IMG/VR virus record: IMGVR_UViG_3300023245_000021
Location: 1-51,643 of that record
Length of the DNA: 51,643 nucleotides
Direction: 5' to 3' (one strand)
Source: a virus
Position 1 is the first letter of the stretch. Each line of letters starts with the position of its first letter. The notes beneath the pieces were generated by a model. It was not told the DNA's origin, did not search any database, and saw only the letters and a list, made by a program, of their open reading frames with translations. Below, in pieces: positions 1-43,530 of the stretch. The translations under genes were made by a program, and so were the position numbers.

Positions 1-1
1 T

Positions 2-67
2 GATGTTGCTATGGGTTCCCCATACGACCATGCCACACCTTATTTAAAACCAGTGGGGGTGAAGTGA
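2..67 (+). CDS. 3' end of a small phage protein (truncated by window start)
   Basis: The frame is open from base 2 and ends DHATPYLKPVGVK then TGA at 65-67. The LKPVGVK tail recurs in other small genes here because it is encoded by the junction cassette, so this is very probably the end of a real gene. The gene cut by the right end of the window (51512 onward) is a candidate for its N-terminal half, but a direct join of the two ends is out of frame. No function can be assigned. Confidence 0.55.
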   Translation, partial: DVAMGSPYDHATPYLKPVGVK

Positions 68-69
68 TG
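46..69 (+). repeat. Junction cassette copy 1 (stop, SD, start)
   Basis: Copy of AAAACCAGTGGGGGTGAAG followed by TGATG. It encodes the KPVGVK end of the upstream frame, contains the SD-like GGGGGTGA, and overlaps stop and start (TGA 65-67, ATG 67-69). Shorter copies or variants lie at 467-481, 674-688, 1268-1285, 1572-1586, 46765-46779 and 51500-51514. Confidence 0.85.
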
Positions 70-291
70 GACGAATTTAAAGAAAAGGTTACAAGTGGCT
101 CAGTCTACCTAGACCCTGCGGAGATATGCTTTTTTACACAGCCAGAGTATTCCGATTGGAAGTGTTACCTGTTTGGCGGGTCGGGCACGAGTCTGACTTG
201 GACTCCACATAAGGGAAAAGAGCCTAATTGGTTTTGGCGAAAGATGCAGTATTTGATACTCGGCAATCGCTGGGTAAAGGAGAAAGAATAA
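67..291 (+). CDS. Small hypothetical phage protein (74 aa)
   Basis: Starts at ATG 67 inside the TGATG overlap, with GGGGGTGA as SD seven bases upstream; a GTG three bases earlier is less likely. The C-terminal part has the aromatic stretch NWFWRKMQYLILGNRW followed by VKEKE, a type of tail I associate with small uncharacterised proteins of marine podoviruses. No catalytic motif or signal peptide is visible. The stop overlaps the next start. The last bases of this gene are echoed by a degenerate copy at 50743-50774 (29 of 32 bases identical), so this gene type has been duplicated and lost once. Function unknown. Confidence 0.75.
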   Translation: MDEFKEKVTSGSVYLDPAEICFFTQPEYSDWKCYLFGGSGTSLTWTPHKGKEPNWFWRKMQYLILGNRWVKEKE

Positions 292-479
292 TGGAAAATA
301 ACCTAATCATGCCTGCAATTCTTGTGTGTCTCGCCGCCTTTATAATAGGCATTGGTCTTGGAGGCCTCGTGAAAGGCGGCACGGCAGAAGAAAAATGGCA
401 GAAAAACACCGCACAAACAGAATGCGCTAGATTTCACCCCGCTACTGGGAAATTTGAATGGATAAAGGGGGTGAAGTGA
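291..479 (+). CDS. Small single-pass membrane protein (62 aa)
   Basis: Starts at ATG 291, overlapping the previous TAA, with GGTAAAGGAG upstream. Residues about 7-28 form one hydrophobic segment rich in Ile, Leu and Gly (FIIGIGLGGLV), so it is probably an inner-membrane protein. The C-terminal part (CARFHPATGKFEWI) resembles small membrane proteins found in many tailed phages. It ends in KGVK, supplied by the junction cassette at 467-481, and overlaps the next gene by one base. Function unknown. Confidence 0.75.
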   Translation: MENNLIMPAILVCLAAFIIGIGLGGLVKGGTAEEKWQKNTAQTECARFHPATGKFEWIKGVK

Positions 480-673
480 TGAGTAAATTATATAGGTGCG
501 GATGGTGTGGACGGCCTACAGATAAAGAAGGTCGAGTGACTTCCATGTTTGAAGTTGGGCGCATATCGGATATTGATGAGGTTTGGAAAGACGCAGACCA
601 TGTGCGTGGTGATTGCTGTAGGGTGATAAGCAAGACGAAGAGGATTATTACAATCGACAGATTTCTGAGTTAG
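479..673 (+). CDS. Small zinc-ribbon-like hypothetical protein (64 aa)
   Basis: Starts at ATG 479 within TGATG, SD GGGGGTGA. The N-terminus has a CGWC knuckle (residues 8-11) and a GDCC pair near residue 48, which could bind one zinc ion. No other domain is recognised. It is one of several tiny Cys-knuckle proteins in this arm. Function unknown. Confidence 0.7.
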   Translation: MSKLYRCGWCGRPTDKEGRVTSMFEVGRISDIDEVWKDADHVRGDCCRVISKTKRIITIDRFLS

Positions 674-685
674 AGGAGTGAAGTG

Positions 686-820
686 ATGAACAGAGAAGAG
701 AAAGAGTTGAGAGAGTCGATAGCAAGGTTTGAGCGGGAGAGAGACATCGCAGAAGATCGCTTGCTCAAGGCAAAGCACACCCTTAAATTTTATCTATTAA
801 AACCAGTGGGGGTGAAGTGA
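686..820 (+). CDS. Short charged coiled-coil-like protein (44 aa)
   Basis: ATG 686 follows the SD-containing stretch AGGAGTGAAG by the usual spacing and overlaps a TGATG. The first 30 residues are almost all charged (many Glu and Arg) with heptad-compatible hydrophobic positions, so a short helix or coiled coil is likely. It ends LKPVGVK then TGA 818-820, the tail being encoded by the junction cassette at 799-822. The identical arrangement in unrelated neighbours argues that it is translated. Function unknown. Confidence 0.65.
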   Translation: MNREEKELRESIARFERERDIAEDRLLKAKHTLKFYLLKPVGVK

Positions 821-822
821 TG
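799..822 (+). repeat. Junction cassette copy (stop, SD, start)
   Basis: Same 24 bases as at 46-69: AAAACCAGTGGGGGTGAAG plus TGATG. It ends the 44-residue gene and starts the next. Confidence 0.85.
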
Positions 823-1017
823 TATTTGCCAGAGATTAAATACCCGCTAAGACTGTGTGTTGAGATGATGCATTATTGCACGTGGTCAAACGAGAAAACG
901 GCAGAGATAAGACCTAGTGAATTGCTTGTCAACTTAGAAGTGTTTTTTAGTAAAGAGCTAATTGAAGAATCGCGAAAAATACTTTGCGGTGAAATAACAC
1001 CAGTGGGGGTGAAGTGA
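820..1017 (+). CDS. Small hypothetical protein (65 aa)
   Basis: Starts at ATG 820 in the TGATG overlap. The body contains CVEMMHYCTW and a predicted helical C-terminal half; no family is recognised. It ends EITPVGVK, again written by the junction cassette (996-1019, one base different from copy 1). Function unknown. Confidence 0.7.
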   Translation: MYLPEIKYPLRLCVEMMHYCTWSNEKTAEIRPSELLVNLEVFFSKELIEESRKILCGEITPVGVK

Positions 1018-1019
1018 TG
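996..1019 (+). repeat. Junction cassette copy (stop, SD, start)
   Basis: AACACCAGTGGGGGTGAAG plus TGATG, differing from copy 1 at one base. It ends the 65-residue gene and starts the zinc-ribbon gene at 1017. Confidence 0.85.
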
Positions 1020-1283
1020 CAAACAACACACTATTGCGACGAGTACGGAGGGTTCCTACAGTACCCAACAAAAGAAGTTAAATCCAAGGAAGTTAATGTA
1101 TGGATTCATGAGAGCCTCTTGGCTGCTACGCACGATTATAGCTGTACCGCTTGTCGAGAGAGGAAGGCGGTGCTGGATATGCAGACTGGAATAATGCAAC
1201 CCTGTTGGCGCTGTCAAGAGGAAGGTTACAAAGTGCTGAAGGTTAGACGCAACTGGCTATTACGGTTAGTGGGGGTGAAGTGA
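1017..1283 (+). CDS. Zinc-ribbon protein (88 aa)
   Basis: Starts at ATG 1017, SD GGGGGTGA. Two CxxC knuckles, CTAC and CWRC, are separated by about 18 residues and followed by a basic strand (YKVLKVRR), the layout of a small zinc ribbon that could bind nucleic acid or another protein. It ends LRLVGVK, the last residues coming from the cassette at 1268-1285. Function unknown; a host-directed regulator is possible but not shown. Confidence 0.75.
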   Translation: MQTTHYCDEYGGFLQYPTKEVKSKEVNVWIHESLLAATHDYSCTACRERKAVLDMQTGIMQPCWRCQEEGYKVLKVRRNWLLRLVGVK

Positions 1284-1570
1284 TGGACATGAAAGAGATT
1301 AAAATAAAACCGAAAAATATTATATGGTCAGACGAAAAAGATTGTGACGAAAGTTGTAGGTATAACCATGTTCGAGGGGCAAGTGGACTCGGTGAATTTT
1401 TGATTACATGGAAGGGTTGGAAAAAGTTTCCTAGTTTTGACATAGAGGGGCCACTAGAGGATTTTAATAACTTTTATGGTTGTGGTTCTTTAAATGAAGC
1501 TAAGGAAAAAGCTAATAAAATGTATGAAGAAACAATACTGGGTTGCATTGAGTCAACAGAGTTAGGTTAG
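1283..1570 (+). CDS. Hypothetical protein (95 aa)
   Basis: ATG 1283 overlaps the previous stop. Contains FLITWKGWKKFP and a Gly/Asn/Asp-rich middle; four Cys residues are scattered without a clear zinc pattern. It looks like a compact soluble protein of alpha/beta type. The stop at 1568-1570 overlaps the next SD region (GGAGGTGAAG). No function recognised. Confidence 0.7.
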   Translation: MDMKEIKIKPKNIIWSDEKDCDESCRYNHVRGASGLGEFLITWKGWKKFPSFDIEGPLEDFNNFYGCGSLNEAKEKANKMYEETILGCIESTELG

Positions 1571-1583
1571 CGGAGGTGAAGTG

Positions 1584-1769
1584 ATGAGTATGTACAACTG
1601 CGGAATATGTGGAGCTTGGAAGGACAATGATTACGAACCTGCTGAGTTTATAAAAGAGAACAGCAGTGACGAAGAGTACCCAGTGTGCGAAGATTGTTTC
1701 GCTGAACATGAAGAGAATAAGAATGACTATACCCACCACGACTATGAGTCTAGTAATGAGCAGAAGTAA
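1584..1769 (+). CDS. Acidic zinc-ribbon protein (61 aa)
   Basis: ATG 1584 is preceded by GGAGGTGAAG, a near-perfect extended SD. Two knuckles, CGIC (residues 6-9) and CEDC (about 35-38), are followed by an acidic His-rich tail. This four-Cys pattern suggests one zinc site. It resembles the gene at 49840 (CGIC and CNLC), so the two arms carry related designs. Function unknown. Confidence 0.75.
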   Translation: MSMYNCGICGAWKDNDYEPAEFIKENSSDEEYPVCEDCFAEHEENKNDYTHHDYESSNEQK

Positions 1770-1920
1770 AGTATACACTACCTTAGCCTTCCTTATGGCA
1801 GCGTGTATGATCTATAAGGTATCCGCAGACCCTGAAGGCTATGGGTTGGATACCACCTTTTTAATCTGGGGAGTCTACATGGCCTCTGGTGTATTGTATT
1901 ATATTTGGAGTGAGACATGA
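1744..1920 (+). CDS. Small membrane protein, two TM segments (58 aa)
   Basis: Overlaps the previous gene by 26 bases in another frame. Starts at ATG 1744 or ATG 1756; neither has a strong SD, so the start is uncertain. Hydrophobic segments lie near residues 13-25 and 37-52, separated by a short polar loop, predicting a two-pass membrane protein. Its stop overlaps the next ATG (ATGA). Function unknown. Confidence 0.55.
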   Translation: MSLVMSRSKVYTTLAFLMAACMIYKVSADPEGYGLDTTFLIWGVYMASGVLYYIWSET

Positions 1921-2114
1921 GAGTAATTGATGATGATGATAAGACTATAGCTGTGTTTAGGAAGCACTTTGGCTTTGGGTTTAGTAGAGAACACTACTAT
2001 CCTATATTGGCAAAGCTTAGAGAGGAGTTAGCCGAAGATTCTTTCGACGAGATATTTGATGCCGTAGCTAGACACGAGACTAAACTAAACAAAGAACAGG
2101 AGAGTGATGTATGA
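1917..2114 (+). CDS. Small acidic hypothetical protein (65 aa)
   Basis: ATGA overlap with the membrane gene upstream and SD TGGAGTGAG. It begins RVIDDDDKT; the 18 coding bases for RVIDDD are identical to those at the start of the gene at 8453, suggesting shared ancestry or reuse of a 5' end. The rest is helical and charged. Function unknown. Confidence 0.7.
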   Translation: MRVIDDDDKTIAVFRKHFGFGFSREHYYPILAKLREELAEDSFDEIFDAVARHETKLNKEQESDV

Positions 2115-2200
2115 TGGATACTATGGTTATCAAAAACCCGGCAGATGATAAGCCGAGTGATCAAGAAGATTTGTTTGAAGCCGTGGCTAACTGCTCATGA
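2114..2200 (+). CDS. Very short ORF (28 aa), possible leader or micro-protein
   Basis: ATG 2114 overlaps the previous stop and its own stop overlaps the next ATG (TCATGA). It encodes a 28-residue acidic peptide with no motif. Tight overlaps on both sides support translation by coupling, but the length makes it uncertain. Confidence 0.4.
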   Translation: MDTMVIKNPADDKPSDQEDLFEAVANCS

Positions 2201-2379
2201 GCTCTTCAACCCACGGAGGTAAAGGAGACAGGCAGCGGCCTAAAGATACAGAGAGGTTTAATACTAATTGGGATTTAATATTTAAAGGAGAAAAGAAAGA
2301 TGATAAAGAAGTTGGCTACACTGCTCGGCGAGAAGCTCCTGTCTTGGATACAACAAGAGACAATAATCCTAAAGAGTAG
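2197..2379 (+). CDS. Small conserved phage protein with NWDxIF motif (60 aa)
   Basis: Starts at ATG 2197. The N-terminus STHGGKGDRQRPKDTERF followed by NTNWDLIF is a pattern I associate with short conserved proteins of tailed phages; its role is unknown. The F-x-x-NWD-x-IF signature also occurs in the late gene at 35857 (FDANWDAIF) on the opposite strand. The last 80 bases are overlapped by the gene starting at 2300 in another frame. Confidence 0.65.
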   Translation: MSSSTHGGKGDRQRPKDTERFNTNWDLIFKGEKKDDKEVGYTARREAPVLDTTRDNNPKE

Positions 2380-2473
2380 GTTTGAATCGAGGTTCATAAA
2401 GACAGTGCGCTCAGTGGTTGTATTGGCTTGTGTGCTGACACTCATTAATGTTATAATGGTTTTAAAAGGATAG
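2300..2473 (+). CDS. Small membrane protein with C-terminal TM (57 aa)
   Basis: ATG 2300 has a strong SD (AAAGGAGAAAAGAAAG) lying inside the preceding gene, which it overlaps in a different frame. The N-terminal half is a basic amphipathic helix; residues about 38-55 (VVVLACVLTLINVIMVL) form one TM helix. Both overlapping frames look plausible. Function unknown. Confidence 0.55.
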   Translation: MIKKLATLLGEKLLSWIQQETIILKSRFESRFIKTVRSVVVLACVLTLINVIMVLKG

Positions 2474-2479
2474 AGCACT

Positions 2480-2593
2480 ATGAATATAATATTAGGAATG
2501 CTTGTAGGGGTGGCAGTAATTTTATGTATTAAAGTCCTGTATGAATCAGAGCTGATGATAGAGGAACTAAAGAAAGAAAGAGAAGAGGATTAA
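2480..2593 (+). CDS. Tiny single-TM protein (37 aa)
   Basis: Begins ATG 2480 six bases after the previous stop, with AAAAGGATAG upstream as SD. Residues 2-20 are hydrophobic (IILGMLVGVAVILCI), followed by a charged helix rich in Glu and Lys. The pattern is that of a small single-pass membrane protein. Function unknown. Confidence 0.55.
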   Translation: MNIILGMLVGVAVILCIKVLYESELMIEELKKEREED

Positions 2594-2597
2594 AGTT

Positions 2598-2900
2598 ATG
2601 ACTAGACGAATAGATAGTATGGATGGGGAGCAACTATACGCTTCTTGGATGAGGTACTCAGGCCCTCTAGCATTATGGCTACTCGAGATGACTGAGCCAG
2701 AACCAAGATGGCAAGACGACCTGAAGAAGGGCCCTATAATCTGTTGGGTTTGGGATAGAGAAAGAGTAAACCCTAAAAAGTATATGTATAATATAGATTC
2801 AATAAACCCTGAAACTGCTGACTACCGCGGAGGTATTCTTAGTTGGGAGTTTGCCGAGCCTGTAAGACCCCACGAAATCTACCAAGGAGGTAGCAGATGA
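2598..2900 (+). CDS. Hypothetical protein, paralogue of the gene at 48914 (100 aa)
   Basis: ATG 2598 with SD GAGAAGAGG. Residues 4-53 align well with the protein at 48914: both have RRID, SWM, YSGPL, EP, PRW, DDLK and CWVW in the same order, while the C-terminal halves differ. No known catalytic motif is visible; the conserved Trp-rich core suggests a small globular fold. It overlaps the next gene by ATGA. The pair on both flanks of the early unit implies duplication. Function unknown. Confidence 0.75.
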   Translation: MTRRIDSMDGEQLYASWMRYSGPLALWLLEMTEPEPRWQDDLKKGPIICWVWDRERVNPKKYMYNIDSINPETADYRGGILSWEFAEPVRPHEIYQGGSR

Positions 2901-3106
2901 ATATATTAATAAGCGCTGAACTACTACAAGAAATGATAGAGTATGTTGAGTCAGCCGAACAGGGCTACGACGCCGAGCATGGGCTAGTGCGGAAGATCCC
3001 GCAGGTTTCACCTGACGACATGATGCCTGATCTCTATGCCACCTTAAAGACTCTAGAAGCGCGGCAACACCCAAACAGAACGGAGGACAACCGCGGCAAT
3101 AAATAA
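2897..3106 (+). CDS. Hypothetical acidic protein (69 aa)
   Basis: ATG 2897 overlaps the previous stop; SD AAGGAGGTAG. Mostly helical and charged, no motif recognised. It is the last of the small left-arm genes before the promoter at 3115. Function unknown. Confidence 0.65.
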   Translation: MNILISAELLQEMIEYVESAEQGYDAEHGLVRKIPQVSPDDMMPDLYATLKTLEARQHPNRTEDNRGNK

Positions 3107-3114
3107 AAAAGAAC

Positions 3115-3143
3115 TTGACAGACTTAACAGACTATGCTATACT
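3115..3143 (+). promoter_or_regulatory. Sigma70 promoter with extended -10 for the replication module
   Basis: TTGACA at 3115-3120, a 17-bp spacer ending TGC, and TATACT at 3138-3143. This is a near-consensus extended -10 promoter. Expected transcription start is near 3150, about 35 bases before the SSB start codon. The same TATGCTATACT block recurs at 9427-9437. Confidence 0.8.
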
Positions 3144-3184
3144 TCACCCTCAATTTTAAAACAACTTAAAAAGGAAATATCAAC

Positions 3185-3619
3185 ATGGCAATATTAGAAG
3201 GCTCAGCATACTGGGCATCAGTTTTAACACCCAACACCACTTTTGAACCGGCCTACTCGGTCAATCTGGTTGTAGACGAAGCGACTGCCGAGGACTTTAA
3301 GGCCCGAGGGTTTAATATTAAACAGATGGACGAAGGCCCTTCTATTCTTTTCAAGCGTAAAGTCGAAGGCAAAGGCGGAACAATTCGCAGCGCGCCTAAG
3401 CTCATGGATAAGTTCAAGAACCCTCTGGACGCACGGGTCGGCAATGGCTCAGCCGTTAAGGTTCAGTACAGCGAGTGGGAAACCACCAATAAGTTTGGTT
3501 CTTTTCGGGGCTTAGACTTTCAGGCTATGCAGGTCTTAAACTTAGTAGAAGTAGGGACTGAAGATGGCGCAGAGTTTGATGCCGAAGACGCAGACGACGA
3601 TATGGACGGAGAACTATAG
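3185..3619 (+). CDS. Single-stranded DNA-binding protein (144 aa)
   Basis: First gene after the promoter, SD AAAAAGGAAAT. The middle of the protein is beta-rich (KVQYSEWETTNKFGSFRG), as expected for an OB fold, and the C-terminus is a strongly acidic tail (EDADDDMDGEL), the hallmark by which phage SSBs of the T7 gp2.5 type contact polymerase and helicase. Position just before primase-helicase supports the call. It would coat single-stranded DNA at the fork. Length is shorter than T7 gp2.5 (232 aa). The stop overlaps the next GTG by one base. Confidence 0.75.
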   Translation: MAILEGSAYWASVLTPNTTFEPAYSVNLVVDEATAEDFKARGFNIKQMDEGPSILFKRKVEGKGGTIRSAPKLMDKFKNPLDARVGNGSAVKVQYSEWETTNKFGSFRGLDFQAMQVLNLVEVGTEDGAEFDAEDADDDMDGEL

Positions 3620-3840
3620 TGGGTATCATTACCGTAGACGGGACTCAGTACGAGTCCGACAACCTCTCGGCACTGGGTCAAGGCATCTTAGCTCGCCTCA
3701 TCGAAGCAGACAAGCGAACAAGCGAGGCTTCGCAGACTGCCGCGATTTTTCAGGCCGCTGTGCTTCAGTTGATCATAGAGCTTAAAGATAACCATCTCTT
3801 TGACGAGGCGCTTGTCACAGAGGAAGTAACCGAGGAGTAA
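3619..3840 (+). CDS. Small conserved replication-neighbour protein (73 aa, DUF6447-like)
   Basis: GTG start at 3619 overlaps the SSB stop. The N-terminus ITVDGTQYESDNLS and a following long helix resemble the short DUF6447-type proteins (T-I-D-G-x-Y, then helix) as I remember them. No catalytic residues. Placed between SSB and helicase, so a minor replication role is possible but unproven. Confidence 0.6.
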   Translation: MGIITVDGTQYESDNLSALGQGILARLIEADKRTSEASQTAAIFQAAVLQLIIELKDNHLFDEALVTEEVTEE

Positions 3841-3845
3841 GCCCA

Positions 3846-5516
3846 TTGCCTTTTGTTAAACACAAACTACCGTGTCCTGAGTGTGGCGGAAGCGACCCAG
3901 TATCTTTAAACGATAATGGGTCAGGTTGGTGCTTCAGCGGGTGTGGCTATCTGCCAAACTACGGAGCCAAAAAGGAAGAGACTTTAACCGACACTGTTAT
4001 AGACTTTGAAATGCACCAAAGGAACAGTAAGATGAATGACGACGGAACTGCCGCCTTTAATGAATTGACTGACCGCAAGATAAGCTTAGCTACTGCTAAG
4101 AAGTACGGCGTCAAATCAACAATGGTTGGCGGGAAGATAGACAAGCACTACTATCCTTATTATAACGGGCATGAGTTAGCCGCTACTAAAATCCGTAAAC
4201 AGAACAAGGATTTTCCGTGGACAGGGAGTCCAAAGGAAGCGGGGTTGTTTGGCGAGAACCTGTTTAAAGCCGGAGGTAAATTCATAACCCTAGTAGAAGG
4301 AGAGTGTGACGCGATGGCCGCTTATGAACTTATGGGGAGTAAGTGGCCTGTTGTTTCTTTAAAGAACGGGGCGGATGGAGGCGTCCGAGATGTAAAAGAG
4401 AACTTAGAATACCTTGAGTCTTTTGAGTCCATAGTAATTAATCTGGACAACGACAAGCCCGGAAAGGCTGCGGCTCTATTGATCGCCAAGCTCTTAACGC
4501 CGGGCAAAGCCAAGATCATGACACTGCCCGTGGACTACAAAGATGCCAACGATATGTTGCGCCAAGGTAGACACGCCGCATACGTCAGTGCTTTTTGGGA
4601 TGCTAAACTCTATACGCCCTCTGGTGTATTGAATATGTCCGAGCAGCTAGAGGCTTATCAACAGCTAAGAGCCGAACGAAAACCGGCCATCCCTTATCCT
4701 TGGTCTGGTTTAAACCGCAAGCTAGAGGGCCTGAGATCCGGCGAGCTTGTTACGCTTACTGGCGGCACGGGCTTAGGAAAGTCCTCTGTTACTCGCGAGG
4801 TTGAGCATTGGTTGATTGAACACACTGACGACAATGTGGGTGTCCTAGCCCTTGAAGAGAGTTGGGCCCGTACTGCGGAGGGTATCATGGCAGTAGAGGC
4901 AAACGCCAAGCTGCATCTTGATAGCGTCAAGGCTACGTTCGCCGACGAACAACTAGACGACTACTATAAGAAAGTCTTTATGGGCGAGAACGAAGGAAGA
5001 GTGTGGGTACATGCTCATCATGGTGTCAATAACCTAGAAGAGATCTTCAGCAAGCTACGATATATGATCATAGGATTAGACTGTAAATGGGTTGTAGTTG
5101 ATCACCTTCACATGCTTGTGTTATCTACTTTAGAGCACGACGAGCGCAAAGCCATTGATGGCATCATGCACCGCTTACGGACTATGGTAGAAGAGACAGG
5201 CTGTGGTATGATACTGGTGTCACACTTGAGGCGAGTCGATGGAAACAGAGGCCACGAAAACGGAATAGAGACAGGGCTATCACACTTGAGAGGCTCTCAA
5301 TCTATTGCTCAGTTGAGTGATTGTGTTATTGCCTTGGAGCGAAACCAACAATCCGAAGATCACATAGAGGCATCAACCACTAAAGTTAGGGTGCTTAAGT
5401 CTAGGTACACTGGCGATGTTGGCGTAGCTTGTCATCTCTTGTATGATCATACGACAGGACGACTGCGAGAGCTAGATGACTTTGATGACTCGCAGTTTGA
5501 CGGAGAGGTTATGTGA
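3846..5516 (+). CDS. Bifunctional primase-helicase, T7 gp4-like (556 aa)
   Basis: Synthesises RNA primers and unwinds DNA at the fork. Order: zinc-binding module with Cys 10, 13, 29 and 33 (CPECGG, WCFSGCG); TOPRIM domain with LVEGECDA (Glu151) and LDNDKPG; RecA-like DnaB helicase with Walker A GGTGLGKSS (Lys312) and Walker B VVVDH (Asp419), then SHLRR and the LRGSQSIAQLSD segment. Length matches T7 gp4 (566 aa). The start is TTG 3846 behind GAGGAGTAAG; no ATG is suitably placed because the zinc motif begins within ten residues. It overlaps the HNH gene by four bases. Confidence 0.95.
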   Translation: MPFVKHKLPCPECGGSDPVSLNDNGSGWCFSGCGYLPNYGAKKEETLTDTVIDFEMHQRNSKMNDDGTAAFNELTDRKISLATAKKYGVKSTMVGGKIDKHYYPYYNGHELAATKIRKQNKDFPWTGSPKEAGLFGENLFKAGGKFITLVEGECDAMAAYELMGSKWPVVSLKNGADGGVRDVKENLEYLESFESIVINLDNDKPGKAAALLIAKLLTPGKAKIMTLPVDYKDANDMLRQGRHAAYVSAFWDAKLYTPSGVLNMSEQLEAYQQLRAERKPAIPYPWSGLNRKLEGLRSGELVTLTGGTGLGKSSVTREVEHWLIEHTDDNVGVLALEESWARTAEGIMAVEANAKLHLDSVKATFADEQLDDYYKKVFMGENEGRVWVHAHHGVNNLEEIFSKLRYMIIGLDCKWVVVDHLHMLVLSTLEHDERKAIDGIMHRLRTMVEETGCGMILVSHLRRVDGNRGHENGIETGLSHLRGSQSIAQLSDCVIALERNQQSEDHIEASTTKVRVLKSRYTGDVGVACHLLYDHTTGRLRELDDFDDSQFDGEVM

Positions 5517-6178
5517 GTAAGGCGTGTTCTAGATGTGGGGAGATTAAAGCGCTTGAAGAGTTTTATAAACGCAGGCGCACTAAGGAGGGGCGCAGGTCTG
5601 AGTGTAAAGAATGTTCAAAGGCTTCTGAAAAAGAATATTACCTAGCGAACAGAGAGGCTGTTAATTCGAGGACTCAGGCGTGGGCTAGAGCCAATCCAAT
5701 GAGTGCTAGGGCTCGGAGCAAGGCGTGGTACGAAGCTAACAAAGAAAGGAAGGCGGCGAAGGGCAGGGCTTGGCGCGAAGCAAACAAAGAAAGAGATCAG
5801 AATTATAATAAGGCTTGGTACGAAGAGAACAAAGAAAGATCTGCGGCACTGAGCAGGGCGTGGCGCGAAGCTAATCCCGAAAGGGTGAAGGCTAATAATA
5901 AGGCTTGGCATCAGACACACTTAGACAAGAGAAACGCGAGTGGGGCTAAGTACAGAGCCGCAAGACTACAGCGCACAGTGGCATGGTCTAACAACGAGGT
6001 AATAGAAGAGGTGTACGCCGAAGCTCGAAGGCTGTCAGAAACTACAGGCATCCAGTTTCATGTCGATCATGTTATTCCGCTTCAAGGTAAACTGGTCAGC
6101 GGCCTTCATGTTGAAACAAATTTACAGATACTTATGGCACACGATAATAGTGCTAAGTCCAACAACTTTAAAATCTAA
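5513..6178 (+). CDS. HNH homing-type endonuclease with 15-residue repeats (221 aa)
   Basis: GTG start overlaps the helicase stop (GTGA). The N-terminus has a CSRC...CKEC zinc knuckle pair (residues 5-34). Residues 56-145 are six tandem 15-residue repeats of the type AWxEANKERxxAxxR, probably helical, forming a linker or DNA-contact arm. The C-terminus holds the HNH core FHVDHVIPLQGKLVSGLHV followed by NLQIL and N-x-x-K. Such free-standing nucleases sit between replication genes of many phages and spread by cutting uninserted alleles. Its presence between helicase and polymerase fits that pattern. Confidence 0.9.
   Translation: MSKACSRCGEIKALEEFYKRRRTKEGRRSECKECSKASEKEYYLANREAVNSRTQAWARANPMSARARSKAWYEANKERKAAKGRAWREANKERDQNYNKAWYEENKERSAALSRAWREANPERVKANNKAWHQTHLDKRNASGAKYRAARLQRTVAWSNNEVIEEVYAEARRLSETTGIQFHVDHVIPLQGKLVSGLHVETNLQILMAHDNSAKSNNFKI
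5678..5947 (+). repeat. Six 45-bp tandem repeats inside the HNH gene
   Basis: Six successive 15-codon units begin with Ala-Trp and usually continue with (Y/R)E-A-N-K-E-R. DNA copies are diverged but share blocks such as GCTTGG and GAAGC. Copy number could vary by slippage without breaking the frame. Confidence 0.85.
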
Positions 6179-6190
6179 AGGAAGAAGAGA

Positions 6191-7963
6191 ATGGTTAACC
6201 TAGTATTCGATATAGAAGCTAACGGTTTAGACCCTACTAAGATCCACTGTATTGTGGCCCAAGACGCCTTCACCAAGGCGGTATTTAAGTTTGATAACAC
6301 TCAACTAGAAGAGGGCTATAAGTTCCTTAGCTCTGCAACTAAGCTCATAGGCCATAATATTATAGGCTATGACATACCCGTCATTAAAAGGCTAGCAGGC
6401 GTGGATCTATTTGATAAGAAGATTGTAGATACTCTAGTTTTATCTCGGCTCTTTAACCCCACCCGCGAGGGGAACCACGGCTTAGAGGGATGGGGCTATC
6501 GCTTAGGCTTTAAGAAAGGTGACTTTGGAAAAGCCGAGGGTGCTTGGGAAGTCTACACGCCCGAGATGTTGAAGTATTGTAAGAATGATGTGTTGTTGAA
6601 TACTAAAGTCTATGAGGCTCTTAAGATTGAGAGCCGCGGGTTTACGCCGCAGTCTGTTCAAATAGAACACGCAGTTGCTAGGATTATAGATCAACAGCGC
6701 AACAACGGCTTTGTTCTTGATGTCGAGAAAGTCATGGGCTTGATGGCTATGTTCGAAACCCTCCTGCATGATTTAGTTGAGGAGGTTCATGAGGAGTTTA
6801 AGCCTGTTATAACTACGCAGATACTTAGCCCTAAGTTTACTACCAACGGGTCATTAGCTAAGACAGCAACAGACCAACACGGAGCCGGGACAAGACTGAG
6901 TGACGAAGAGTACGAGAAACTTTTAGTAGATGAGGGCTCTAAGCCTATAGCTCGACACACCGAGACGCCCTTTAACCTTGGCTCAAGGAAACAAATAGGC
7001 GAATACTTAATCCGCTTCGGTTGGAAGCCGCAGAAGTTTACGCCCACAGGTCAGCCGATGGTAGACGAGGGGATACTTAAACGAGTTAAGAGGATTCCGC
7101 AGGCCGCCTTAATCGCCCGCTACCTTATGGTTCAGAAGCGCTTGGCACAAACTAAGAGTTGGATCAAAGAACTGAACGAAGAGACAGGCAGAGTGCATGG
7201 TTATGTTAATCCTAATGGCGCAGTGACAAGCCGCATGACTCATTCGCATCCGAACATGGCTCAAATTCCTAGTAGCACTTCGCCTTATGGCCCCGAGTGT
7301 CGTGCTTGTTGGACAGTCCCAAAAGGCTACAAGCTTGTAGGCATTGATGCCTCTGGCTTAGAACTACGAATGCTAGCACACTACTTAAACGACGAGGGCT
7401 ATACTAATGAAATCCTTAACGGAGACATACATACCACTAATCAAAACCTTGCAGGGCTTGAGTCAAGAGATCAGGCTAAGACTTTCATCTATGCCCTCCT
7501 GTACGGAGCCGGAGATGCTAAGCTTGGATCAGTGGCTAAAAGAGGCAGAGCAGGTGGTAAAGGACTTAGACAACGCTTCTTTGATAACCTCCCATCATTT
7601 AAAGCTCTTACAGATCGCGTACAAAGAGAAGCAGCAAGCGGATTCATTAAAGGCTTAGATGGCCGCAAGCTCACGGTTCGCTCGGCTCACGCTGCCCTCA
7701 ACACTCTTCTTCAAGGAGCAGGCGCAATAGTCATGAAGAAGGCGCTGATAATCCTTGATGATCTTATAACCTCTAAAGGACTTGATGCTAAGTTCGTAGC
7801 CAATGTCCACGACGAATGGCAGATAGAGTGCCACAAAGATCACGCAGAAGAAGTAGGAAAGCTAGGTGTACGAGCCATCAAAGAAGCAGGCTGTATGCTT
7901 GCGCTTAATTGTCCATTAGACGGCGACTATAAAGTCGGGGAGAACTGGAGTGAAACACATTAA
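6191..7963 (+). CDS. Family A DNA polymerase, T7 gp5-like (590 aa)
   Basis: Replicative polymerase with proofreading. Exonuclease domain: DIEANG (Asp7, Glu9), HNIIGYD, and YCKNDV near residue 134. Polymerase motif A VGIDASGLELRML (Asp386), motif B RDQAKTFIYALLYG (Arg426, Lys430, Tyr434, Tyr438) and motif C VHDE (Asp541). Tyr434 aligns with E. coli Phe762, and Tyr there is the T7-type state often linked to virulent phages. It is shorter than T7 gp5 (704 aa). SD AAAGGAAGAAG. Its last 14 bases overlap the GIY-YIG gene. Confidence 0.97.
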   Translation: MVNLVFDIEANGLDPTKIHCIVAQDAFTKAVFKFDNTQLEEGYKFLSSATKLIGHNIIGYDIPVIKRLAGVDLFDKKIVDTLVLSRLFNPTREGNHGLEGWGYRLGFKKGDFGKAEGAWEVYTPEMLKYCKNDVLLNTKVYEALKIESRGFTPQSVQIEHAVARIIDQQRNNGFVLDVEKVMGLMAMFETLLHDLVEEVHEEFKPVITTQILSPKFTTNGSLAKTATDQHGAGTRLSDEEYEKLLVDEGSKPIARHTETPFNLGSRKQIGEYLIRFGWKPQKFTPTGQPMVDEGILKRVKRIPQAALIARYLMVQKRLAQTKSWIKELNEETGRVHGYVNPNGAVTSRMTHSHPNMAQIPSSTSPYGPECRACWTVPKGYKLVGIDASGLELRMLAHYLNDEGYTNEILNGDIHTTNQNLAGLESRDQAKTFIYALLYGAGDAKLGSVAKRGRAGGKGLRQRFFDNLPSFKALTDRVQREAASGFIKGLDGRKLTVRSAHAALNTLLQGAGAIVMKKALIILDDLITSKGLDAKFVANVHDEWQIECHKDHAEEVGKLGVRAIKEAGCMLALNCPLDGDYKVGENWSETH

Positions 7964-8453
7964 AAACTGTATAGAATGTGGCGTAGTCTTAGAAGCACCC
8001 GTCAACTGGTGGCGTTCTTTTGTTGATAAGAAGCACTATAAATGCACTGACTGTTATAATACGCGCCGCACTGAGAATGAAGTCAAGAAGAAATATCAAG
8101 ATGGCGAGCAGCCAAGTTCAAAGCTACTGGCTAAGCTCTTTAAGACTCGACACAAAGCAGAATATGACGACATCAAACACGGCTATGTCTATATCATATC
8201 TAACCCTGCGTGGCCGGGGTGGTACAAAGTGGGCATGGCACTCGACGCAAATGACAGGTGCTCTAGTTATCAAACCTCCTCGCCGCTAAGAGACTATGTA
8301 GTTAGATACTCTAAGTTCTTTGCAGATCGCCGCGAAACAGAAAAGACCGTGCATTTAAAACTTAAAGAACTTGACCTAGAGAACACAAATGAATGGTTTA
8401 AAGGGTCGCTGAGTCTGATCAAACGAACCATCCGACAGCAAAGGAGTAAGTGA
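7950..8453 (+). CDS. GIY-YIG/T5orf172-like endonuclease (167 aa)
   Basis: GTG start inside the last codons of the polymerase gene. The N-terminus has two Cys knuckles (CIEC, CTDC), a likely zinc ribbon. Residues 78-155 read GYVYIISNP, WYKVGMA, R-x-x-x-YQTSSP and a late Glu (ETEKTVHLKL), the pattern of T5orf172/MUG113 GIY-YIG domains with G-x-V-Y in place of GIY. Probably a mobile nuclease acting on DNA. Its position right behind the polymerase catalytic motif is a classic homing site. Confidence 0.8.
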   Translation: MKHIKNCIECGVVLEAPVNWWRSFVDKKHYKCTDCYNTRRTENEVKKKYQDGEQPSSKLLAKLFKTRHKAEYDDIKHGYVYIISNPAWPGWYKVGMALDANDRCSSYQTSSPLRDYVVRYSKFFADRRETEKTVHLKLKELDLENTNEWFKGSLSLIKRTIRQQRSK

Positions 8454-8767
8454 TGTCTAGAGTAATTGATGATGATCGTCTAGCCGAAGAGGTACTACTA
8501 GAGTGGCGCTGTGAGGGTAGCCCTCTTGAGTATTTACTTCGGGATCTAAGAAAAGAAACCCCTAACTGGTGGAATGATATAGACATGAAAAACCCAGCAA
8601 CTTGGGTTGATGCGTGGGCTTGGAATTTGGGTGAGCGAGAAAGAGTCCTGATAACGCACCGCCAACATGAGCCTAACCTTGCTGGAATCCGTCTTTACTA
8701 TTCGTCCACAAACCGAACTTATGTTAATGCTACACCCTTTATTAAACCGGAGAAAAATAATGCCTAA
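8453..8767 (+). CDS. Hypothetical protein (104 aa)
   Basis: ATG 8453 in a TGATG overlap with SD AAAGGAGTAAG. Begins SRVIDDD, sharing 18 identical bases with the start of the gene at 1917. The central part is Trp-rich (NWWNDID, WVDAWAWNLGE) and resembles no family I know. It overlaps the exonuclease start by eight bases. Function unknown. Confidence 0.7.
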   Translation: MSRVIDDDRLAEEVLLEWRCEGSPLEYLLRDLRKETPNWWNDIDMKNPATWVDAWAWNLGERERVLITHRQHEPNLAGIRLYYSSTNRTYVNATPFIKPEKNNA

Positions 8768-9620
8768 AGACCTAAACACCTTAGTACCTGACATCTATAG
8801 CCACTTGGAGAAACTTTCTAGCGGCACACCTTTGCCCTTGACAGACGCCGACATCGACCAAGCCGCAGAGGGTATGAAGGCTGCGCTTAAATCTTGGGCA
8901 AACCCCGAAGAGCGAGACACCAACTTCACGGTTCGTATGTCTAATGTTGGCAAGCCTGCGCGTCAGTTGTGGCACCAGAAGCGAGATCCAGAAAGACGAG
9001 GCGGTATTGATGGCCCGACGCAGATCAAGTTCTTATACGGCCACTTGCTTGAAGAGATTGTTCTTATGCTTGTACGCATGGCAGGCCACGAAGTTACCGA
9101 CGAACAAAAAGAAGTCAAGGTAAAAGGCATAGTAGGCCACATGGACTGTAAGATTAATGGCGAGGTGGTTGATGTTAAGACAGCCTCAAGGTTCGCTTTT
9201 AATAAATTCAGAGAAGGGCGCTTAGCCCAAGACGATCCGTTTGGATACTTGGGTCAACTGGCGGGCTACGAAGCAGCAGAGGGTACAGACAAAGGCGGCT
9301 TCTTAGTATTAAACAAAGAGAGTGGCGAGCTGTGCATGTATGTGCCAGATGACCTAGACAAGCCCAACATTAAATCGTCTATAAGCCGCTTGTTGCCTGC
9401 ATTAGAGCTTGACACGCCGCCTGCTTTATGCTATACTCCCATACCTGATGGCAAGAAAGGCAACATGAAACTCCCCAAAGGCTGTAGTTGGTGTAAGTAT
9501 AAGTACAAATGCTATGCAGACTCTAATGACGGAGCAGGCTTGCGGACTTTTAAATATTCTAATGGCAATACTTACTTAACTCAAGTAGTTGCCGAACCCA
9601 AAGTAGAGGAGCTACTATGA
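8760..9620 (+). CDS. PD-(D/E)XK exonuclease, RecB/Cas4-like (286 aa)
   Basis: Likely degrades host DNA or processes ends, the position held by gp6 exonuclease in T7. The nuclease core shows GHLLEE, then GHMDC (Asp129) and EVVDVKTAS (Asp138-x-Lys140), followed by the QLAGYEAA helix typical of RecB-type nucleases. Near the C-terminus CSWCKYKYKC (Cys242, 245, 251) looks like part of a Cas4/AddB-type iron-sulfur or zinc site. Start ATG 8760 follows GGAGAAAAATA. The promoter-like sequence at 9409-9437 lies inside this gene. Confidence 0.88.
   Translation: MPKDLNTLVPDIYSHLEKLSSGTPLPLTDADIDQAAEGMKAALKSWANPEERDTNFTVRMSNVGKPARQLWHQKRDPERRGGIDGPTQIKFLYGHLLEEIVLMLVRMAGHEVTDEQKEVKVKGIVGHMDCKINGEVVDVKTASRFAFNKFREGRLAQDDPFGYLGQLAGYEAAEGTDKGGFLVLNKESGELCMYVPDDLDKPNIKSSISRLLPALELDTPPALCYTPIPDGKKGNMKLPKGCSWCKYKYKCYADSNDGAGLRTFKYSNGNTYLTQVVAEPKVEELL
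9409..9437 (+). promoter_or_regulatory. Putative internal sigma70 promoter (extended -10)
   Basis: TTGACA 9409-9414, 17-bp spacer ending ATGC, TATACT 9432-9437. It shares TATGCTATACT with the promoter at 3115. It lies within the exonuclease gene and could drive endonuclease I and the nucleotide genes. Because it is coding sequence, chance cannot be excluded. Confidence 0.6.
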
Positions 9621-12109: not shown

Positions 12110-14740
12110 ATGGATCAATATCAAGAATTTATACATCGCTCGCGTTATGCACGTTGGATACCGGAGCTTAACCGCCGCGAGTCTTGGAGTGAGACAGTGC
12201 ATCGTTATGTCAACTTCTGGCTTGAGCGCGAGCAAATCACAGCAGCTGAGGGTAAGAAGATATACAACGCTATCTACAACCTAGAAGTCATGCCGTCTAT
12301 GCGGTGTCTTATGACAGCCGGGCCTGCGTTAGCTAAAGATAATGCAGCAGGTTTTAATTGCGCCTATGCTCAAATTGACTCACCGCGTTCTTTTGACGAG
12401 CTAATGTATATTCTTATGTGTGGCACCGGCAAAGGGTTTAGCGTCGAGCGGAACTTTATAAACGAGCTACCTATTGTCGCCGAGAGCTTTCATACGACGG
12501 ACAGCGTTATTGTCGTTAGCGATAGTAAAAGTGGATGGGCCTCGGCGTTCCGCGAGCTAATAGCCTTGCTGTACGCAGGTAAAATCCCTCAGTGGGACGT
12601 AAGCAGAGTAAGGCCCTCGGGGGCTAGATTAAAAACCTTTGGCGGGAGGGCATCTGGCCCAGAGCCTTTAGTAGATCTTTTTAATTTCTGCGTAGGTATT
12701 TTCCCTAAAGCCAAGGGCCGTAAATTAACCTCTATTGAGTGTCATGATATTTGCTGTAAGATAGCAGACATTGTAGTAGTAGGAGGCGTCAGGCGCTCAG
12801 CGCTTATTAGCCTCTCTAATCTTTCAGACCAACGAATGTCTAAGGCTAAGTCCGGCGACTGGTGGAGAAATGAGGGGCATAGACGCTTAGCCAATAATAG
12901 TGTTGCTTATACTGAGAAGCCTGACTTTCAGTCTTATTTGGCCGAGATGCAAAACCTCTATGAGTCTAAGGCCGGCGAGCGCGGAATCTTTAGTCGTGTT
13001 GCGGCCCAGAAGATAGCCGCTAAGAACGGACGACGCGACGCTGATCAAGACTTTGGCACAAATCCTTGTCTCCATCCTGATTCTCTAGTTCAGACGATAC
13101 ACGGCGTTGTGCGCATAGCAGACATAACCGAGCCTACTAAGGTCTATACTATGCAAGCAGACGGCTCTTTAGGTATACGCGACTGTTCGGCTTCTTGGGT
13201 TAGTAAAAAGAATGCTGCTACGCTAAACATCACCATAGCGTCAGGCAAGGTAGTAAGGTGTACGCCTGACCATAAGATCTTCATAGAGGGCAAGGGTTGG
13301 ATAGAAGCCAAAGACATTCAGATTAAAGACCGTGTTGTTCACTTGGTGCGTAGTCGAAGAGGCGCGGCCTACTCAGGGGTTAAGCTAACAACCCAAGGGC
13401 CTCGGGACTATATCATGGAGCATAGGTTAGTGTGGGCTAGTGAGTATGGCCCTATTCCCGAGTACCACGACATACATCACATAGATGGAGACACATATAA
13501 TAATGACATAGATAACTTAGAGTGTCTTAGCCATAGTGACCATGCCAGACTCACAGCCTTAGAGCAGCCCAACAACCACGCGGTGTGCGGGCTCAGAGAC
13601 CATTCGCCGGGAAGACACGGCAGCTTACAGGGTTTTGTCTCTCCGGCCAACAGTAAGCACGGGGCCAAAACCATAATCCCTATGCCAGAGGAGTTGAAAG
13701 CAGGGTTACATCAGGTGGCTTCAGTGGTTGCTATTAGCGAAGGAGAGACTACAGACGTTTATGACCTAACAGTAGAAGATACTCATAACTTTATAGCAGA
13801 CTTTGTTGTTGTCCATAACTGTAGTGAGATTATACTAAGATCTAATCAGTTCTGTAACCTCAGCGAAGTAGTTGTGCGGGCTGATGATACTGTAAAGACC
13901 CTTAAGAAAAAGGTCGAGATGGCAGCTATCATAGGAACCCTCCAAGCTACGCTCACTGACTTCAGATACTTACGAAAAGTCTGGAAGAAGAACACAGAAG
14001 AAGAGGCGTTACTTGGTGTCAGCTTGACGGGCATCATGGACAATAAACTACTTAATAACTGTACGGATAAACTCAATGAAACACTTGAAAGTCTTAAAGC
14101 AGTGGCTGTTGTTACGAATAAGAAGTGGGCGTCTAAGCTTGGTATCAATCAGTCTGCGGCTATTACATGCGTTAAGCCAAGCGGTACTGTCAGTCAGCTT
14201 GTTAATTCTGCCAGTGGCATTCATCCTCGTTTCAGCAACTATTATATTCGAAGAGTACGCTCGGATAAAAAAGACCCGTTGGCAGTCTTCATGCAAGAAG
14301 CCGGATTTGCCGCCGAAACAGACGTAACCTCTAAGGAGACCCTAGTGTTTGGGTTTCCTATTAAGTCGCCAGAGGGCTCAGTGACTGTAAAACAAGTAGG
14401 GGCCATGCAGCAACTAAAGCTCTGGAAGGCTTATCAGGATCATTGGTGCGAACATAAGCCAAGCATCACTGTCTACTACACCGACGACGAGTTCCTTCAA
14501 GTGACTCAGTGGATCTGGGAGAACTTTGATAGTGTTAGCGGGATTAGTTTATTGCCGGTCAGTGATCATGTCTATCAGCAAGCCCCTTATGAGGACATAA
14601 GCGCCGAAGAGTACGAGCGCTTAGTCGCCGAGATGCCAAGCGGCATAGACTGGAACGACTTGCAGAACTTTGAAACCGAAGATAACACAACAGGCTCTCA
14701 AGAACTTGCTTGCGTAGGAGGTACTTGTGAAATTGTCTAA
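12110..14740 (+). CDS. nrdJ: Class II ribonucleoside-triphosphate reductase with intein (876 aa precursor)
   Basis: Adenosylcobalamin-dependent, single-chain reductase making dNTPs from NTPs. Extein features fit the L. leichmannii RTPR type: FNCAYAQ (Cys84), GGVRRSALISLSNL, NPCSEI with radical Cys571 and Glu573, Cys582 eleven residues on, the phosphate loop KPSGTVSQL, and the C-terminal redox pair CVGGTC (Cys868, Cys873). Residues 320-570 are an intein, so the mature enzyme has 625 residues. No B12 synthesis gene is present; the host must supply cobalamin. SD AGAGGAAAAG. The end overlaps the next gene by 14 bases. Confidence 0.95.
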   Translation: MDQYQEFIHRSRYARWIPELNRRESWSETVHRYVNFWLEREQITAAEGKKIYNAIYNLEVMPSMRCLMTAGPALAKDNAAGFNCAYAQIDSPRSFDELMYILMCGTGKGFSVERNFINELPIVAESFHTTDSVIVVSDSKSGWASAFRELIALLYAGKIPQWDVSRVRPSGARLKTFGGRASGPEPLVDLFNFCVGIFPKAKGRKLTSIECHDICCKIADIVVVGGVRRSALISLSNLSDQRMSKAKSGDWWRNEGHRRLANNSVAYTEKPDFQSYLAEMQNLYESKAGERGIFSRVAAQKIAAKNGRRDADQDFGTNPCLHPDSLVQTIHGVVRIADITEPTKVYTMQADGSLGIRDCSASWVSKKNAATLNITIASGKVVRCTPDHKIFIEGKGWIEAKDIQIKDRVVHLVRSRRGAAYSGVKLTTQGPRDYIMEHRLVWASEYGPIPEYHDIHHIDGDTYNNDIDNLECLSHSDHARLTALEQPNNHAVCGLRDHSPGRHGSLQGFVSPANSKHGAKTIIPMPEELKAGLHQVASVVAISEGETTDVYDLTVEDTHNFIADFVVVHNCSEIILRSNQFCNLSEVVVRADDTVKTLKKKVEMAAIIGTLQATLTDFRYLRKVWKKNTEEEALLGVSLTGIMDNKLLNNCTDKLNETLESLKAVAVVTNKKWASKLGINQSAAITCVKPSGTVSQLVNSASGIHPRFSNYYIRRVRSDKKDPLAVFMQEAGFAAETDVTSKETLVFGFPIKSPEGSVTVKQVGAMQQLKLWKAYQDHWCEHKPSITVYYTDDEFLQVTQWIWENFDSVSGISLLPVSDHVYQQAPYEDISAEEYERLVAEMPSGIDWNDLQNFETEDNTTGSQELACVGGTCEIV
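13067..13819 (+). mobile_element. Intein with HNH endonuclease inside the reductase (251 aa)
   Basis: Begins at Cys320 (NP|CLHPDSLV) and ends VVVHN570 before Cys571. Splicing blocks are visible: N1 block CLHPDSLVQTIHGVV, block B CTPDHKIFI, block F YDLTVEDTHNFIAD, block G VVVHN|C. An HNH_3-type nuclease, HRLVWASEYGPIPEYHDIHH followed by IDGDTYNNDIDNL, occupies about residues 436-482. All catalytic positions (Cys1, block B His, terminal His-Asn, Cys+1) are intact, so it should splice and may home. Confidence 0.95.
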
Positions 14741-28385: not shown

Positions 28386-28580
28386 TTATTTAGCGTTTAA
28401 GGGCACAGTAGTGACTGATCTAAGCACCACAATACATACTGCAATACCTATTCCGATGAGTGCTTGTGAGCCTTGACTAACAGGCAATAAACCAGTGTAC
28501 CCTTGAGCCATGCTTAAAACAGTCAACGCAATGCTAAATTGTATCGTCCTAGACTTGAGGCTCTGTAGTATTAAGTCCAT
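28386..28580 (-). CDS. Small two-TM membrane protein, holin-associated type (64 aa)
   Basis: Begins MDLILQSLKSRTIQFSIALT and ends VVLRSVTTVPL. Two hydrophobic segments (about 15-32 and 40-55) and the LKSRTI...VLRxxTTxPL pattern match short membrane proteins encoded after tail fibre genes in many phages. Its start overlaps the upstream stop. It may assist the holin; function unknown. Confidence 0.7.
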   Translation of the reverse strand: MDLILQSLKSRTIQFSIALTVLSMAQGYTGLLPVSQGSQALIGIGIAVCIVVLRSVTTVPLNAK

Positions 28581-28816
28581 TATGATATGTACTCATTGCC
28601 AGAGCTAATGGCGGCACTAACCGCAGTCATGTCTTCATCGCCCCAATCGTCTTTAGCAACCATAAGCTCTAGGTGCTGAACATTACGCTCAACTGTTCCT
28701 TGGCTATCTTCATCAGCTTCTGCGGCGATAGTGGCTGTGATAAGTACTACACTATCACCCATTGCTGAGTAGTCTTGTGCTAGTTGTTCTGCTTTACGAT
28801 CTTCTACTTGTGACAT
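28580..28816 (-). CDS. Small acidic protein after the tail fibre (78 aa)
   Basis: Acidic, helical, with no motif (KAEQLAQDYSAMGDSVVLIT, DDWGDEDMTAV). It starts one base after the fibre gene ends (TAATATG context). Position suggests a tail-fibre assembly or chaperone helper, but nothing in the sequence proves it. Confidence 0.6.
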   Translation of the reverse strand: MSQVEDRKAEQLAQDYSAMGDSVVLITATIAAEADEDSQGTVERNVQHLELMVAKDDWGDEDMTAVSAAISSGNEYIS

Positions 28817-43416: not shown

Positions 43417-43423
43417 AGGCTAT

Positions 43424-43452
43424 ATTATACTACTTGATTTGGGTTTTGTCAA
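43424..43452 (-). promoter_or_regulatory. Leftward late/terminase promoter (consensus sigma70)
   Basis: On the minus strand TTGACA (43452-43447), 17-bp spacer, TATAAT (43429-43424): full consensus. Expected start is about 43416-43418, at the TerS ATG, predicting a leaderless or nearly leaderless mRNA. Confidence 0.85.
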
Positions 43453-43501
43453 GTCTTTTTTTAGTTATTTTAGTTTATTTGCTAAATAGTTACGAAATAG
43501 C

Positions 43502-43530
43502 TTGACAAAACCTGAATCAAGTAGTATAAT
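43502..43530 (+). promoter_or_regulatory. Rightward early promoter (consensus sigma70)
   Basis: TTGACA 43502-43507, 17-bp spacer, TATAAT 43525-43530, with AT-rich sequence upstream that could act as an UP element. Expected start near 43537; the first recognised gene begins 685 bases later. Confidence 0.85.

Follow-up and report, generated by a model that had tools for sequence, protein, structure and literature searches.

A stop–ribosome-binding-site–start repeat as a probable recombination joint between small early genes of otherwise unrelated phages

Short conserved sequences at gene borders, namely the lambdoid boundary or linker sequences and the T4-type promoter stem-loops (PeSLs), have been suggested to mediate module shuffling by serving as sites of recombination. 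Of these, the PeSLs lie between genes and consist of a promoter and a hairpin. Integron gene cassettes form another kind of array, in which exchangeable small genes are connected by a repeated joint. Here we describe a repeat, called the cassette, in viral DNA of 51,643 nucleotides (nt) from IMG/VR record IMGVR_UViG_3300023245_000021; this whole stretch is referred to as the window. The cassette is a compact unit of stop codon, ribosome-binding site (RBS) and start codon between small early genes, and its 18-nt core, AGTGGGGGTGAAGTGATG, spans -15 to +3 relative to the ATG. We consider it likely that the cassette serves as a short homology for annealing recombination in a gene pool shared among phages. 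This is a case of phage mosaicism at short border sequences and not a new class. Unlike the PeSL, the joint consists of an RBS and a stop codon and has no conserved fold; the four copies that were folded gave no common structure. Unlike integrons, it shows no attC-like hairpin in these copies, and no match to Phage_integrase (PF00589) or Resolvase, the tyrosine and serine recombinases, was obtained in eight records, some of them fragments, while control genomes were positive.

The Start-Associated Sequences (SAS/ESAS) of Cluster K mycobacteriophages are the closest in appearance. In the part of the source drawn on here, SAS are short asymmetric repeats with a Shine-Dalgarno (SD) core just before the ATG, in many copies and nearly all in one orientation. 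They lie in the non-structural half, precede genes of different families, and are also conserved at bases not paired with 16S rRNA (PMC3203893). The cassette copies are placed similarly, directly upstream of starts (mostly ATG), in one orientation and outside the structural genes. However, the SAS consensus is a 13-bp sequence, GGGATAGGAGCCC, found mostly after intergenic gaps of more than 50 bp, and that part of the source describes no exchange-point role (PMC3203893). In our analysis GGGATAGGAGCCC had 0 matches at up to 2 mismatches, and the genes overlap or abut at the cassette. The present repeat is a site where stop and start overlap, and it is part of the coding sequence of the upstream gene; blocks shared between unrelated phages end there.

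The lambdoid nin region is similar in gene organization. As described in the part of PMC8022706 drawn on here, it consists of tightly packed, small, non-essential genes with stop-start overlaps and a content that varies between phages, and in lambda the neighbouring nin genes overlap at ATGA (Kroger and Hobom 1982, cited in PMC8022706). A NinB/Orf gene near the array of one cassette carrier, G002, adds to the likeness. The nin genes are placed between the replication genes and the late activator of the lambdoid early right operon, whereas the window is HTVC103P-like with a non-lambdoid layout. The lambda gene starts from ren to Q (n=10) have nothing in common beyond a purine-rich SD, whereas a near-identical 18-nt core connects the genes here. 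Relaxed homologous recombination by phage Rad52-like proteins (PMC3945230, PMC2327257) likely uses the same machinery, with Erf-type annealing proteins, an exonuclease and Orf. Those studies concern exchange in long diverged homologies of hundreds of bp; here the homology at the joint is limited to the short RBS cassette. As in homology-mediated mosaicism, the block ends coincide with sequence common to both parents.

The cassette repeat and its protein tail

The initial annotation had named eleven copies with an SD seven bases ahead of the ATG. All eleven were found where it had placed them, and the SD spacing was borne out. The copies are as follows.

46-69, + strand: copy AAAACCAGTGGGGGTGAAGTGATG; starts gene 67-291 and ends a gene truncated by the contig start
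464-481, + strand: copy AAAGGGGGTGAAGTGATG; joins genes 291-479 and 479-673
671-688, + strand: degenerate copy ..AGAGGAGTGAAGTGATG; the stop of the upstream gene precedes it
798-822, + strand: copy AAAACCAGTGGGGGTGAAGTGATG; joins 686-820 and 820-1017
995-1019, + strand: copy ACACCAGTGGGGGTGAAGTGATG; joins 820-1017 and 1017-1283; in L007/G002 another gene follows the same upstream gene
1264-1285, + strand: copy TTAGTGGGGGTGAAGTGATG; joins 1017-1283 and 1283-1570; another gene follows in L010/G004
1569-1586, + strand: copy AGCGGAGGTGAAGTGATG; the stop of the upstream gene precedes it
46762-46779, + strand: degenerate copy TGAGGGAGTGAAGTGATG in the left arm
50694-50726, + strand: copy with the stop lost (TGGTG), then a remnant of a 67-291-type gene
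51191-51223, + strand: copy joining 51018-51221 and 51221-51493
51492-51514, + strand: copy CGACTGGAGGTGAAGTTATG; in L007/G002 a 67-291-type gene follows instead

All copies lie on the + strand, within the arms of small early genes, and no copy of the 18-nt core would be expected by chance. The window has exactly 5 perfect matches to CCAGTGGGGGTGAAG, and with up to 3 mismatches this sequence gives 8 matches against 0.68 expected, a number never reached by shuffles. Six ATGs in the window have GGGGGTGAAGTGAT in common, compared with a maximum of 2 over 500 order-3 Markov sequences. A longer TTTAAAACC form represents a sub-lineage of copies. When 34 distinct junctions from the window phage and six other carriers were compared, the start codon was ATG in 33. 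The 29 junctions with GTG before the start codon are conserved at 0.9-2 bits over -15 to +3; conservation drops to 0.2 bits at +4, and further upstream than -15 it fades. Because the search pattern included the inner core bases, part of their invariance was imposed. The conserved AGT at -15 to -13 and the drop past +3 were not imposed in this way.

Each copy had been thought to end one frame and to start the next gene by a TGATG overlap. This applies to most copies, through which consecutive small genes are interlinked. An upstream frame enters eight of the eleven; at 674, 1572 and 51500 the upstream gene stops earlier, at TAG, TAG and TAA, respectively. The overlap is replaced by TTATG at 51500 and by TGGTG at 50703, where the stop is lost and the protein continues to ...LKPVGVKWWS. 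The sequence after the 50703 copy looks like the 3' remnant of gene 67-291.

The common C-terminal tail that had been noticed on unrelated proteins was confirmed: about 14 families, unrelated after trimming of the tail, end in GVK or EVK. Two frames of the cassette contain TGA; of these, the one overlapping the ATG is used by nearly all upstream genes that reach into the cassette. The GVK-type tail results from this frame. In G004, one G fewer changes LLRLVGVK to LLRLVG, and in G002 a gene of family F06 ends in the other frame with ...PHLRG; the RBS is kept in both. Several copies have thus lost or lengthened the tail without losing the RBS, which identifies the RBS as the part that is kept. 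A functional peptide tail was therefore rejected as the main point, given these losses, the lost stop at 50703, and three window copies that the upstream gene does not read. The KPVGVK/GVK tail looks like a passenger of RBS read-through.

Exchange of small genes between carriers

The cassette genes of the window, labelled by family, are listed below.

67-291, + strand: F01, 74 amino acids (aa); in 5 carriers with differing neighbours; a second joint, the GGTAAAGG SD, lies at its 3' end
291-479, + strand: F02, 62 aa, C-terminus IKGVK
479-673, + strand: F07, 64 aa; 98% in G002
686-820, + strand: F08, 44 aa, C-terminus LKPVGVK; 100% in G002
820-1017, + strand: F09, 65 aa, C-terminus TPVGVK; 100% in G002
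1017-1283, + strand: F03, 88 aa, C-terminus LVGVK; 79% in G004
1283-1570, + strand: F15, 95 aa; PHROG 33319, unknown function
1584-1769, + strand: F10, 61 aa; the G007 relative has C-terminus LKPVGVK
50437-50733, + strand: F05, 98 aa, C-terminus KPVGVKWWS
51018-51221, + strand: F06, 67 aa, C-terminus LKPVGVK
51221-51493, + strand: F12, 90 aa; 96% in G002

Searches of Pfam, PHROGs and PADLOC gave nothing convincing on the functions of the small genes bar the PHROG 33319 match.

The window is a near-complete podovirus genome with a T7-like polymerase, and its small genes are also present in carriers of other virion types (G002/G004, G005/G006, G007 and G003/G008). G002/G004 have a portal of PHROG 1216 and a capsid of PHROG 1328, which we read as a P22-like virion type. 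G005/G006 encode a DNA transfer protein of PHROG 1745, and G007 has a siphovirus-like portal and a tape measure protein. The portals of the window phage and G002 are 22% identical, yet most of their common small proteins are 87-100% identical. The gene orders are given here.

Window phage: F18-F05-(F01 remnant)-F19-F06-F12-F20-F04-F01-F02-F07-F08-F09-F03-F15-F10
G002: F21-F20-F04-x-F22-F07-F08-F09-F06-F12-F01-F23-F24
G004: F21-(small open reading frame)-F05-F03-F23-F24
G006: F04-F06-F22-F01-F13-F14-F02-F26-F01-F27
G005: x-x-x-F01-F13-F14-F02-F26-F01-F27
G007: F25-F10-x-F14-F02-x-F01

When relatives are compared at the cassette boundaries, the order is not fixed; the neighbours of the same genes differ, and the switch is at the cassette. 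G002 and G004 are sister phages, 92-98% identical over their longest aligned blocks, but between their common flanks F21 and F23-F24 the cassette gene content differs. The rearranged order and the block switches support the initial proposal of a modular joint by which small genes are shuffled or gained.

The cassette is absent from the closest capsid relatives. The nearest contigs by major capsid protein (80 kept) are 81-91% identical in aa sequence; one of them, G009, is 90% identical to the window in the portal and 85% in the terminase. GGRGGTGAAGTGATG and the cassette repeat were not found at gene starts in G009-G016, of which G009-G012 span the early region and several others are fragments without it. 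The interval matching the small-gene array is about 1-1.4 kb in G009 and G012 versus about 5 kb in the window. Among isolated phages in INPHARED (best 20 of 38 records), matches to window positions 1-8000 are confined to the primase/polymerase part, with none in the early array. A bacterial source of the repeat was rejected; the 20-mer has only two genome_contigs matches, both in Streptomyces, and they were taken as chance.

In the tail region of the window, genes at 28386-28816 (- strand) are 93-98% identical to G002, the virion genes being otherwise unrelated. Part of the adjoining large gene (28818-33470, - strand) is 76% identical to G002. These are a second exchanged module, possibly of host-recognition genes, and the similarity at 28386-28816 hints at a host common to the two phages.

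The ends of homology blocks locate the exchange. In ten cross-phage pairs with the same downstream gene, the gene bodies are 84-100% and the 18-nt cores 83-100% identical, whereas the 45 nt before the core (-60 to -16) are 24-42% identical, which is the random level. BLASTN blocks end on the left mostly at -12 to -36 from the ATG and on the right at about +2. Counted as distinct ends within arrays, 32 of 45 left ends fall within -40 to +2 of a cassette ATG (5.3 under a rotation null, with a maximum of 18 in 5000 rotations), and 21 of 41 right ends fall within -5 to +12 (1.9; maximum 12, 5000 rotations). Because many borders are gene borders anyway, cassette starts were compared with the other gene starts of the same arrays; borders are carried by 26/36 and 10/23, respectively, a modest effect (Fisher p=0.033) in units that are not independent. 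The two-sided homology is the stronger point. Homology of the upstream block reaches about +2, and that of the downstream block starts at -12 to -36, so the two overlap inside the cassette; both parents therefore carried the core. Similarity beyond the SD, on which the initial annotation had made its proposal depend, is present in the AGT at -15 to -13, in the TTTAAAACC of some copies, and in this overlap. At nine of the twelve re-joined junctions tested, exact shared crossover segments of 8-21 nt were found.

G005 and G006 provide the cleanest case. They are 99.9% identical over 8915 bp, with identity starting 16 nt before the F01 ATG. Upstream of F01, G006 holds F22, F06 and F04, preceded by the end of a 55-aa gene that directly adjoins F01 in G005. 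The difference is one 840-bp block of three genes, F04-F06-F22, bounded exactly by cassettes. The G005 joint has the G of the upstream copy at -10 and then F01, which places the crossover within GGTGAAGTGATG.

F01 is present twice in the G005 array (L123, 7558-8899), with copies 95.5% identical, as expected from exchange between cassettes.

The N-terminal part of F04 differs in G006, and genes have therefore recombined internally too. Two non-cassette genes of the window resemble the F04 N-terminal stretch MSRVIDDDEK (loci concerned: 1917-2114, 8453-8767 and L116:6342-6650).

Annealing at short homology and other explanations

Annealing proteins are encoded by the carriers. Erf is present in G002 and G007, and G002 also has an exonuclease besides NinB/Orf. 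The window encodes two candidate recombination factors.

3185-3619, + strand: gp2.5-like single-stranded DNA (ssDNA) binding/annealing protein, PHROG 112
8667-9620, + strand: Cas4-domain exonuclease, PHROG 1990

With these proteins encoded, and with neither a tyrosine/serine recombinase match nor a conserved fold, annealing or template switching at short homology is favoured. In this mechanism, AGTGGGGGTGAAGTGATG between small early genes would be the homology for exchange, insertion, deletion and reordering. Erf or gp2.5-like ssDNA annealing, together with an exonuclease, would connect any gene's 3' end with the 5' end of another, whatever the two genes are. The crossover falls inside the stop-RBS-start unit, and the products would therefore retain the stop codon, the strong SD seven bases from the ATG, and a coupled start, and selection would retain those products in which all three are intact. 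The gene pool would be common to phages of different virion types, probably with the same host. The benefit would be the retention of working junctions, and selection might also act on shuffling as such. We infer from sequence which recombinase acts, that translation is coupled, and that the host is common.

Several points weigh against this mechanism. Besides the weakness of the Fisher comparison, two of the twelve junctions, F04|F06 in G006 and F03|F23 in G004, gave little or no exact overlap, and the junction window F02|F07 was tested with only a distantly related partner. Some exchanges end inside genes (F04 and F06), and many of the missed ends fall at the F01 end, the second SD-type joint GGTAAAGG. 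Red-beta has a published minimal pairing length of 23-27 bp, and RecA one of 31-34 bp (PMC3945230). Window copies compared in pairs have 23-35 nt in common at 96-100%, but the exact shared segments of 8-21 nt are shorter than the Red-beta value. The G005/G006 block, like the other events, can be read as either gain or loss. The exchanges are few and partly related, and come from metagenome contigs only.

The cassette could instead be only a strong coupled RBS under selection, with genes, each carrying its own RBS, moving by illegitimate recombination at gene ends and similarity arising by convergence on the best SD. In favour of this, the SD within the core is as long as 8 nt (GGAGGTGA), SD junctions other than the cassette are also sites of exchange, and peptide changes that preserve the SD are tolerated. 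However, other genes of the same phage are served by other SDs (AGGAGAAA and GGAGAAGAG). The conserved AGT lies outside the SD, a subset of copies has TTTAAAACC in common, and the homology of the upstream gene runs through the cassette to the ATG despite an unrelated next gene. Together with the absence of the cassette from the closest capsid relatives, this makes convergence unlikely. Somewhat less probable still is a binding site for a protein or RNA polymerase that controls the early genes, with exchange being incidental. SAS repeats with inverted-repeat extensions have been discussed in this way, in the part of PMC3203893 drawn on here. A palindrome, TGGTTTAAAACCA, is present in the cassette but is limited to two window copies, and conservation is centred on the SD and ends at the ATG. 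Regulation alone would not place block ends there, although it is possible as an added function.

Misjoining of contigs from mixed phage populations at repeats is very improbable. In its favour are the metagenomic origin of all records, which also counts against annealing at the cassette, and repeat lengths of 18-36 nt; but the window, L006 and L009 have the same order, and G002 closes with an exact 127-nt terminal overlap. The assembly k was probably far above the cassette length. Most of the joined blocks diverge by several per cent from one contig to another, with gene bodies mostly 84-98% identical, and are not simple copies of each other. In an integron-like system, every small gene would carry a recombination site of its own and be moved by a dedicated site-specific recombinase. 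Such a system would explain small-gene arrays, a site repeated in one orientation, and content that differs among related phages. Nevertheless, the eight records, some of them fragments, gave no Phage_integrase or Resolvase match, the four folded copies have no conserved hairpin, and breakpoints are also seen at other SD joints and inside genes; we give it hardly any credence.

Annealing at the cassette bears on an old question, whether mosaic borders at gene ends arise from random joins sorted by selection or from joins guided by border sequences that are shared. Here, a short joint recurs in nearly identical form in phages that are otherwise unrelated. Parents can be compared with products, and a near-identical pair differs by one cassette block, which makes guided joining directly testable. 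RBSs are among the few sequences common to many genes, and this case suggests that they can act as recombination points that leave a working operon. Small genes with GVK-type ends on coupled starts could help to locate early genes of unknown function that have been exchanged. More tentatively, and rather doubtfully, host-sharing phages of different families may maintain the RBS joint as a dedicated exchange format, a 'connector' that preserves their compatibility with a common pool of small early genes, perhaps anti-defence genes. If so, integron-like arrays would work without a site-specific recombinase.

The window phage and other joints

The genes of the window include primase/helicase, DNA polymerase, the gp2.5-like protein, the Cas4-type exonuclease and ribonucleotide reductase, and the late genes are on the minus strand. 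Its large terminase is 62-65% identical to those of Pelagibacter phages HTVC115P/103P/104P, a group that carries HMO-2011-type morphogenesis genes (PMC8528129). Contig L006/G001 (3300022836_000079) is 99.9% identical to the window and bridges 51643 to 1 via about 361 extra bases. The bridge adds one cassette copy (12 in total in the same phage), and the genes cut at the window ends are intact in L006/G001. The window ends are thus where the contig was opened, within the small-gene array.

The ribonucleotide reductase open reading frame (12110-14740, + strand) contains Intein_splicing (residues 334-570) and HNH_3 domains within class II ribonucleotide reductase domains and appears to hold an intein. 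A large imperfect inverted repeat at 43412-43542 (59-nt arms, 78%, 13-nt spacing), with TTGACA/TATAAT-like boxes, sits where the late (-) arm meets the early (+) arm and probably represents divergent promoters. ATAAGCTTCT is repeated in tandem at 43650-43706, in the stretch that separates the two arms.

Other joints are also shared between genes. A second one, TTATTTAAA(A)GGAG(G)A(A)GAGTTATGA, lies at 46971-46995 and 47285-47309 and supplies the ends SYLKEEEL and DYLKGEEL of two consecutive proteins. L218, from the same phage as L215, has six GGAGTTGAAGAATG starts in series at 3885-6141. Its joint with tail KHFGVEE and head MNERI was rejected as a clean parallel, as it largely reflects paralogy among proteins with a conserved core: most of the proteins have the MNERI head, the HFGVEE tail and the core EKFAELIVREC, and gene 5526-5711 has the tail only. 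The L218 joint sequence is found in at least 120 viral-contig stretches.

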